Shown in pieces: positions 56,440 to 57,922 of a stretch of 64,000 bases of DNA. Made by a program: the position numbers and the translations under genes. The stretch spans positions 372,001 to 436,000 of the forward strand of contig NZ_JARRIB010000001.1 of assembly GCF_041647995.1 (NCBI RefSeq), given 5' to 3'. Position 1 is the stretch's first letter; each line of letters opens with the position of its first letter. The stretch is from Pyrococcus kukulkanii (GTDB lineage Archaea; Methanobacteriota_B; Thermococci; Thermococcales; Thermococcaceae). Below the pieces are notes generated by a model. That model was not told the DNA's origin. It was given only the letters and a program-made list of their open reading frames with translations, and did no database searches.

Positions 56440-56490
56440 GAAAACTAAGGAGCTTGATTCCCTCCCTGCCCTAAAGGGTGAGGCCTTCAT
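56440..56490 (-). mobile_element. Relic of an IS200/IS605 tnpB 3' end
   Basis: On the minus strand the frame reads KASPFRAGRESSS, the typical C-terminal tail of TnpB in which the codons for P-F-R-A-G form the hairpin CCCTTTAGGG with following GGGAGG. This is where the element's omega-RNA and right end lie. No TnpB body remains; the HXXEE gene ends just upstream at 56487. Confidence 0.6.
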
Positions 56491-57089
56491 GTTACCTTTG
56501 CCTTCATAAACTTCAATCCCCAAACCATCAGCGCGCCTTGAATCGCCAGAGCGACGAGAAAGCCAATGATATGTGCACCCAGCGACAACGGATGACTGGT
56601 GGCAAAGTAGTAAACTGTGTAAGCGCCAACGGGTATGTTAAGCAGTGCACTCGCCACGAGGCCCGGGTTGTAGCCATGCTTGAAGAACATGCCCACATGC
56701 GAGAGGGCATTCAGGATCGAGAAATAGGCCGTCCATATTCCGATTGAAATATCAACGAGACTTGCGAGGACAGCCGAGAGCGGGAATCCAATGAAGATTA
56801 TTGGAACGTTAATCCAAAGGGCGTGTGTTTTTGTAAGTGGCCAGTCCCCCTGCTTTGAGCCCAGAACCTTTTTGTTGAAGAACTCCACGAAGCCACCAGG
56901 GTAAATGTACTCCTCGAACTGGTGCACCCAGTAGACCGGTGTCTGCAGCCAGATTAGGAAGAGGGGGAAGTTCTCCTTGAAGACGAACAAAACCAGCAGA
57001 ACAGTTACATACACGGCAAGAAAGGGCGTTGAAACTGGCCAGTACTCCTCAAGCCACGATATTATCGAACATTTTTTCATGAACTTCAC
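56487..57089 (-). CDS. HXXEE-domain membrane protein
   Basis: A ~200-aa protein with about five membrane segments and the HXXEE motif as VHQFEEYIYPGGF in the first half, plus a His-containing SHVGMFFKHGYNPGLVAS later. HXXEE proteins are unexplained but the conserved His/Glu set suggests metal-dependent membrane enzymes. GTG 57089 is chosen because AGGTGG lies six bases before it; TTG 57110 and ATG 57080 are in frame. It is flanked by oppositely oriented TnpB tails, which suggests it was carried or exposed by IS605-like insertions. Confidence 0.7.
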   Translation of the reverse strand: MKFMKKCSIISWLEEYWPVSTPFLAVYVTVLLVLFVFKENFPLFLIWLQTPVYWVHQFEEYIYPGGFVEFFNKKVLGSKQGDWPLTKTHALWINVPIIFIGFPLSAVLASLVDISIGIWTAYFSILNALSHVGMFFKHGYNPGLVASALLNIPVGAYTVYYFATSHPLSLGAHIIGFLVALAIQGALMVWGLKFMKAKVT

Positions 57090-57375
57090 GACAACCACCT
57101 GCTTGAGCAATGTTATTCGTAGAGCGTGACCCCCCCATTTTTATTAGGAGGGCTTTCAGGGAAATGGCAACCTCACACCCTCAAACACGCTTAAACATCA
57201 TATTCCAGGATCACTACACCACCAAAACTACCTCACAGAGCTATATAAAAATTACGGGAACCAAAAGATGCCAAATGCTCCGATTTATCCCAATCAAGAA
57301 ATTTCCCAGAAGGATAACATTGAGAGATAACACCAAACCCTAAATCTACCTACCACCAATTGTCACCACCTTTGT
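57090..57375. other. Gap upstream of the HXXEE gene
   Basis: No reliable open frame is present. A minus-strand TATATAGCTC near 57240 and the ATGATGTTTAAGCGTG start near 57185-57200 could be remains of a left end or a promoter, but I cannot show either. Confidence 0.3.
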
Positions 57376-57420
57376 GGGCTGGGAGCCTCACCCTTTAGGG
57401 GGAGGAAAGCCCGCTATATT
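57376..57420 (+). mobile_element. Second relic of a tnpB 3' end, opposite orientation
   Basis: On the plus strand GASPFRGRKAR is encoded over the same hairpin CCTCACCCTTTAGGGG. GCCTCACCCTTTAGGG here (57385-57400) is identical, inverted, to 56469-56484, a 16-base match. The two relics therefore face each other across the HXXEE gene. Confidence 0.55.
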
Positions 57421-57449
57421 CAATTTTTATTCCTCCTGAGGGCCTCTAA

Positions 57450-57548
57450 CCGTGCCCGATGACGCCAACCTGCCCGACGACCACGGGCGACCCTGCGGAG
57501 CTATGGGAACCCCCGCAAAGGGGAGGAGGTCAGTGGAATCTCTATAGT
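57450..57548 (+). mobile_element. IS605-type right-end-like GC-rich segment
   Basis: A GC-rich, hairpin-prone stretch with ACCACGGGCGACCCTGCGG and then CCCCCGCAAAGGGG followed by AGGAGGTCAGT. This pattern resembles the scaffold part of IS605-family right ends (omega-RNA). It ends sharply where the sequence returns to AT-rich, broken coding DNA. Identity is by pattern only. Confidence 0.45.
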
Positions 57549-57795
57549 CGCATAAGCATCTCCTGTTCCACCAATGTCAAACTTTTCTCCAACACTTGCA
57601 TATGTTATTGCATACCCATATCCTATTGCCTCAATTCAGGTGGAAACTTTTTGAGAACTACCTAAATATGCCTCGTTTCTATTTGTATGAAATAAACCAT
57701 TATGATTTAACTCTCGACTCACCATATTCTGCTCTATTCCAAGATATACAACAGTTCCTCCACCGCTCCCTGGGTCAATATTAAACCGAAATTAT
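57549..57795 (-). pseudogene. Fragment of a decayed secreted-type protein gene
   Basis: The minus strand encodes IDPGSGGGTVVYLGIEQN in one frame and AIGYGYAITYASVGEKFDIG in another, with a stop between. Gly-rich, beta-type sequence suggests an extracellular protein. The fragment ends exactly where the IS605-like segment begins, consistent with interruption by the insertion. The parent family was not recognised. Confidence 0.4.
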
Positions 57796-57922
57796 TTATT
57801 AAGACTCCCCGGTTTACTTTAAGACTATCCTAAGTAATATCTTACTTATATTCTACACAAAAATCTCTTACAAGCCCAAAAATAAAAAGAAGCAAAGACT
57901 AGGATATAGTGTTAGTTGTGCT

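Follow-up and report, generated by a model that had tools for sequence, protein, structure and literature searches.

A TnpB element of the IS200/605-like type as a probable solo guide-RNA copy, with HgcC as its likely omega RNA, in Pyrococcus kukulkanii

According to the published descriptions of ISDra2, the omega RNA of this element is 116 nt long, overlaps the 3′ end of tnpB and contains a pseudoknot in which positions −6 to −2 pair with positions −102 to −106 (PMC10097598); the conversion of tnpB mRNA into omega RNA, furthermore, is reported to be carried out by TnpB itself (PMC10278001). In Pyrococcus abyssi four repeated small RNAs (sRkB, sRkC, sRk48 and sRk52) have been described as similar to orphan OrfB genes, and three of the four are said to bind L7Ae through a K-turn (PMC3124441). 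As to HgcC, some copies of the RNA in T. kodakarensis are described as sense transcripts that arise inside transposase genes, and the transcriptome account for P. furiosus places HgcC antisense to a transposase gene (PMC4247193). No paper naming both HgcC and TnpB was found in a search confined mostly to literature outside subscription, and among the matches listed none identifies HgcC as an omega RNA or reports an omega RNA in divergent orientation.

The stretch of DNA analysed here, hereafter the window, comprises 64,000 nucleotides of P. kukulkanii and contains at 57367–57533 (+) a complete, non-autonomous, tnpB-less element of 167 bp. We consider it probable, at roughly 0.6, that a TnpB element of the IS200/605-like type is represented here by a solo guide-RNA copy and that the HgcC RNA it carries is most likely an omega RNA. 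The boundaries of the element are taken from the empty sites of other copies, and the segment 57362–57534 aligns as one block to other genomic copies. Along the plus strand one encounters the tetranucleotide TCAC (57363–57366), a TAM-like target left of the insertion, recognised from the empty-site alignments and left ends of other copies; a left-end hairpin that holds a 16-mer (57385–57407) and corresponds to a region overlapping the reversed tnpB 3′ end in the intact relative; a TATA-like stretch (57414–57421), a putative promoter read from the sequence, which precedes the HgcC 5′ end by ~23 nt; the HgcC or omega-RNA-like scaffold (57438–57533), identified with Rfam model RF00062 and ending at the right end GGAGGAGGTCAG; and, downstream of the right end, the flank that, judged from the element boundary, would occupy the guide position (57534–57553). 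The initial annotation had seen a further right-end segment at 57450–57548; the segment is real, but it forms, with the right-hand 16-mer, a single element, of which it is the distal end. Its suggestion of remnant omega-RNA scaffolds holds for this side, where a guide-RNA-like scaffold, matched by RF00062 below gathering, is still present.

The element apparently landed, as far as the letters tell, within the 3′-terminal part of a gene that is unrelated to it and is a neighbour of the gene of an HXXEE protein. The remnant of the gene apparently interrupted near its 3′ end occupies approximately 57340–57900 (−), and the flanks, when rejoined, read GDAYATIEIPVTIGGR up to a stop codon; the window copy has another stop upstream of this stretch. 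In genome G010, which belongs to the same species, this gene is frame-shifted at the junction, and an 82-residue fragment read from it gave no Pfam match. The empty site of the window element itself was not found in the seven other-species genomes of the genus, all seven of which match the right flank of the window only from about 57917 or 57930 on; because the match in these relatives starts only there, the rejoined reading frame weakly supports an insertion into the gene.

The same genome contains six other tnpB-less copies (L002–L007, L007 being more diverged), a single copy with an intact tnpB (L011), whose element block is interrupted by ~1.1 kb, and shorter pieces of the element (L010 and two more). 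The TnpB of L011 has 379 codons and matches PF07282, the TNB zinc domain, with 87.0 bits (E 9.6e-25) and PF01385 with 25.2 bits, below the cut-off of 30.5. With some variants, the elements begin directly after TCAC with CWCCTTTGTGGGC and close with GGGGAGGAGGTCAG. Subterminal hairpins are present at both ends of L011, and the last hairpin of the right end is shortened in the solo copies of this genome, the window's included, and in those of G007 and G010.

Six insertion sites were searched for empty counterparts in the genus and five could be aligned with element-free relatives. At L002, L003 and L011 the relative G007 has a clean empty site that reads flank-TCAC-flank, so that TCAC is part of the target, and the element is inserted between this tetranucleotide and the following flank base; the empty sites of G005 agree at L002 and L011 and show TTAC at L003. 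The empty site of L006 is consistent, with the four bases CCAT, the alignment of L004 with the relative G005 yields no clear boundary, and L005 lies next to a tRNA gene, where the search outside its own genome returned tRNA-region matches only. Insertion 3′ of a short target without duplication of the target is, accordingly, clean at three of the five aligned empty sites and consistent at one. When 22 left ends were gathered without requiring TCAC (two pairs of rows representing the same insertion in two genomes), an exact TCAC was found directly before the end in 17 and shifted by one base in two more (L104 and L112); three remain without it even allowing for the shift, namely L007 (ACGC), L103 (ACAT) and L132 (CCAC). 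The flanks on the right, guide side share no motif by eye among the first bases after the right end, and only one orientation therefore fits with a target on the left. In the solo copy L005 the region just upstream of HgcC is almost the same as in L011. Mini-elements of ~45–50 bp, in which the left-end hairpin passes directly into the right-end GGAGGAGGTCAG, were also seen: one in G075 (L097, ~1505–1553), which follows TCAC, and two others at L040 (G000:C3:96.6 kb, G000 being the genome of the window) and L077 (2157–2192, in G017).

In the intact copy L011 the HgcC RNA is located upstream of tnpB and on the opposite strand. This divergent layout was found, among the matches listed for 94 genomes of the family, in at least six elements, that is in all six unbroken members of the clade that were found: L011 itself, one each in G085, G073 and G024, and two copies in G089. 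The HgcC of five of them scores above the gathering threshold and that of G024 just under it (49.2 bits), the gap between the matched parts of HgcC and tnpB being 46–90 bp. The six TnpB proteins form one clade with support 99/96, the bootstrap not being fully settled, and a putative D-E-D triad and a zinc ribbon are kept in the alignment of all six; the D-E-D triad of RuvC consists of the catalytic residues. A broken seventh relative, in G008, has kept its left end, and its locus gives no HgcC match.

A different layout prevails at 19 of the 29 loci L158–L186 (among the matches listed), where HgcC lies in sense at the tnpB 3′ end; the other ten are made up of four divergent loci, already counted among the six, five loci without TnpB and one with a short fragment only. 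A very long branch separates the TnpB clades of the two layouts, so that the RNA end which they share could stem from shared transposon ends and not from a shared partner. In the sense-layout TnpBs inspected (L164, L167, L169, L175, L177, L183 and L014) the usual RuvC-II glutamate is absent, VGYPK standing in its place, and a conserved E is found in EAFTS, a pattern that presumably resembles that of TnpBs with a rearranged active site. The representative of this clade among the four TnpB genes L011–L014 examined in the P. kukulkanii genome, L014, is devoid of its N-terminal part. Repeated intergenic units that start near TTTTTCTTTYGAAAGCCTCGCCC at L036, L038, L039 and L042 of the same genome, some of which follow TTAC-like bases, probably represent left ends of elements with the sense layout. 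Two weaker TnpB matches (L015 and L016) are also present in this genome, as are two IS607-type elements (L012 and L013), each with open serine-recombinase-like and TnpB frames; no HgcC match was obtained at the L012 and L013 loci.

The RNA of the window element matches the whole RF00062 model at 57438–57542 (+); with 41.8 bits (E 1.1e-7) it does not reach the gathering score, which is 50. The genome yields 17 matches to this model, seven of which are above gathering, and the scores rise from 61.1 bits for the counterpart in G010 to 111.3 for L011 and to as much as 122 for intact relatives. The window copy is decaying: two bases of stem 1 have been lost, a loss common to the G010 counterpart, and one pair of the next stem is broken in the window copy alone. 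Its minimum free energy is not unusual (z −0.92), that of L011 corresponding to z −2.07.

A pseudoknot is possible between the loop of stem 1 (CTRRCC), which in L011 is placed at about −103 to −98, and the terminal GGUCAG. With G-U pairs allowed and the best register taken within 12 bases, all six pairs can form in 15 of 21 sequences and five of the six in the remaining six sequences; five form in the window copy. In this helix 95.2% of the cells are paired and no double-sided (compensatory) changes occur, whereas the stem at columns 47–51/56–60 displays double-sided changes at four of its five pairs. Taken together, the two helices have 95.8% of their cells paired and exceed 500 of 500 shuffles in covariation score, in cells paired and in cells with double changes, 498 of 500 in pair types and 463 of 500 in the number of pairs with double changes. 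The sense-layout RNAs, readable at 15 of 18 loci, present no full six-pair match in the stem-1 loop, only the four-base GRCC. When loci were scanned against all of Rfam, three of three sense-layout loci and two further HgcC loci gave matches to sot0042 (RF02656) below gathering.

The empty sites, the possible pseudoknot and the presence of HgcC in sense at the 3′ ends of other tnpB genes suggest that HgcC is an omega RNA and that tnpB is flipped with respect to the transposon ends. Indeed, the HgcC scaffold ends at the right end, the adjoining flank is in the guide position and the target motif is at the opposite, left end. The intact element would thus consist, in this order, of the TCAC target, the left-end hairpin, the reversed tnpB, a short divergent promoter region, then HgcC with the right end, and lastly the flank; the 3′ end of HgcC would coincide with the right end, and the neighbouring chromosome would supply the guide. 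If HgcC marks the right end, the tnpB of the divergent clade points from the right to the left end, and this polarity would explain why a TnpB tail is read from the strand opposite to the left-end 16-mer. A deletion of tnpB would generate a small element that keeps both ends, the putative promoter and the guide RNA; each solo copy could then take a new guide at its landing site, and the TnpB of the single intact copy L011 could be directed in trans to the corresponding empty site. Transcription of the window copy, loading onto TnpB, cleavage and the route of transposition are what we infer from this arrangement. The wider proposal, namely an archaeal TnpB clade with a flipped nuclease gene, in which HgcC is a separate divergent omega-RNA gene and, once uncoupled from tnpB, gave rise to solo guide-RNA elements that spread nuclease-free, with a new guide at each landing site and one TnpB acting in trans, is a tentative one, to which we give somewhat less than an even chance.

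The HgcC of the divergent elements might instead serve as guide for the TnpB of the sense-layout clade, or regulate tnpB as an antisense RNA. The two clades do share RNA 3′ ends in spite of the distance between their proteins, HgcC does lie on the strand opposite tnpB, and the HgcC of P. furiosus, which is known here by its description, has been called antisense to a transposase gene (PMC4247193). On the other hand, in none of the six members does HgcC extend into the matched coding region of tnpB, upstream of which it starts at the distances given above, and the divergent pairing is kept in every unbroken member found; as regards a guide for another TnpB, the truncated L014 is the only sense-layout protein among L011–L014, L015 and L016 being unclassified. 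We regard this alternative as unlikely. Still less likely is that the divergent TnpB relies on a conventional sense omega RNA produced from its own 3′ end, HgcC being a left-over. This would correspond to the layout published for ISDra2 and would agree with the existence of hairpins at both ends of the element, but no Rfam sense omega RNA was matched at the tnpB 3′ end of L011, L129 or L131, the TCAC target is on that very side, the one that the guide would need to occupy, and the solo copies keep ~50 nt of that end and nearly all of HgcC.

The Y1 (HUH) transposase TnpA (PF01797) has no match in the genome of the window, and the element, which carries none either, is for this reason designated IS200/605-like and non-autonomous and not a full IS200/IS605 member; movement in this genome today thus has no resident Y1 transposase to account for it. 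Several solo elements nevertheless occupy different sites in this genome, so that the mover is gone or acted in trans. A Y1 match is found in 25 of the 94 family genomes. Among the 13 genomes that possess the element or one of its ends, nine are without a match (G000, G007, G010, G024, G073, G085, G088, G089 and G093, the assemblies of G010, G085 and G088 being only 61–77% complete) and four have one (G008, where it contains stops, G075, G083 and G087); none of the five genomes with an unbroken divergent element has a match. The Y1 transposase is thereby ruled out as a constant partner of the element, and its presence in some relatives makes a transposase acting in trans possible there.

The element had first come to attention through a 16-mer, CCCTAAAGGGTGAGGC, and the 16 identical bases reported at 56469–56484 (+) and, inverted, at 57385–57400 (−) were found again as an exact match. 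In a scan of the whole genome (2.05 Mb) the exact sequence occurs only in these two copies, seven further copies appear when one mismatch is allowed, and a reversed control gives none. Since its copies represent a genome-wide repeat family, the pair does not constitute a private bracket around the HXXEE gene. Both window copies have the A variant GCCTCACCC, with a G in all seven other near copies; the shared variant may be a coincidence or the result of an exchange between the two. The S-P-F-R frame attributed to a TnpB tail is open at both copies, but the tnpB tail of L011 is encoded in the frame of the opposite strand, which reads KQAFLPALKGEASSPQRR followed by the stop. The hairpin is nearly palindromic, and its other strand reads LPALKGEA in the left and LPLKGEA in the right copy. 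A reading of the right copy as a TnpB tail in sense is rejected, since the tnpB frame is on the other strand.

To the left of the HXXEE gene, 56458–56489 (−) appears from local alignments to be a decayed IS200/605-type end hairpin. It scores 34–44 over 22–32 bases against ten end hairpins and mini-elements, which had been picked for holding the 16-mer core and include the window's own end, the maxima of 300 shuffles being 18–24. Similarity to the right end of L011 is weak (score 24 against a shuffle maximum of 20), and the alignments fit several end hairpins without singling out one end type or element class. The left 16-mer belongs to an independent, decayed end fragment of 32 bases, the first three of which (TGA, 56487–56489) are the present stop codon of the HXXEE gene.

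The HXXEE membrane protein gene itself (56487–57110, −) is independent of the elements. The domain assigned to it earlier is confirmed by PF13787 (47.3 bits, cut-off 25), and relatives exist in 14 of the 94 family genomes, 11 with 82–100% identity (its own genome included) and three with 36–38%. At the loci of other species no similarity to the window extends beyond the gene and the flanks differ, so that none of them offers the identical flanks free of IS605-like ends that the initial annotation had named as its refutation; only one of the ten further genes with 82–100% identity, that of G010, has the arrangement of the window. The orthologue in G073 is three codons longer (PGE), the window frame ending at the TGA.

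It had been proposed that either two TnpB elements lost their bodies on the two sides of this gene or the gene was mobilised as cargo. TnpB-type (IS200/605-like) ends are indeed present on both sides, but on the right they are the two ends of a single complete element without tnpB. Mobilisation could be read from the order of features on the minus strand (element, HXXEE, end relic), from the patchy occurrence of the gene in differing neighbourhoods and from a single end motif that follows the HXXEE gene after about 30 bp in G017, which holds one of the nine orthologues of other species. It is rejected, as very improbable, on two main grounds: the right element is complete and has its own target, and no paired ends were found at the nine other-species orthologues within flanks of up to 1.5 kb (less at contig ends); the left relic, furthermore, is truncated and of no clear type. 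The two element ends and the unrelated HXXEE gene are an accidental neighbourhood. That both 16-mers are chance matches has next to no probability, for although two or more window matches also arise in 17 of 100 shuffles if up to three mismatches to CCCTAAAGGGTGAGGC are allowed, the two copies are exactly identical, nine genomic copies lie within one mismatch against none for the reversed control, and similarity extends around each copy, chance having already been refuted for the right one.

The interest of the locus resides in the element family, a TnpB clade with a divergent HgcC and solo guide-RNA copies. Were the proposed reading true, a divergent promoter for the RNA would uncouple the supply of guide from expression of the nuclease, a separate divergent RNA gene would explain the tnpB-less solo copies, and a function would be suggested for the long-orphan HgcC RNA. 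Compared with HgcC as defined by RF00062, the window RNA corresponds to the model over its whole length with a score below gathering. In its resemblance to the TnpB–omega RNA system of ISDra2, as far as the latter is described, the family has a scaffold of 112 nt (L011) against 116 nt that ends at the right end, a possible 3′-end pseudoknot in the matching place and a target motif upstream of the target; unlike in ISDra2, tnpB runs in the opposite direction and HgcC begins upstream of the gene. To the P. abyssi sRk RNAs, likened here by their description, the family is similar in consisting of repeated small RNAs tied to OrfB genes, and it differs from them in that those match the sense strand of OrfB 3′ ends (PMC3124441). 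With regard, finally, to the sense overlapping transcripts or haloarchaeal omega RNAs (sot0042), a weak overlap (24.9–42 bits, gathering 88) exists at HgcC loci that have the sense layout or lack tnpB and at none of the divergent loci scanned (L011, L129, L131 and L178).
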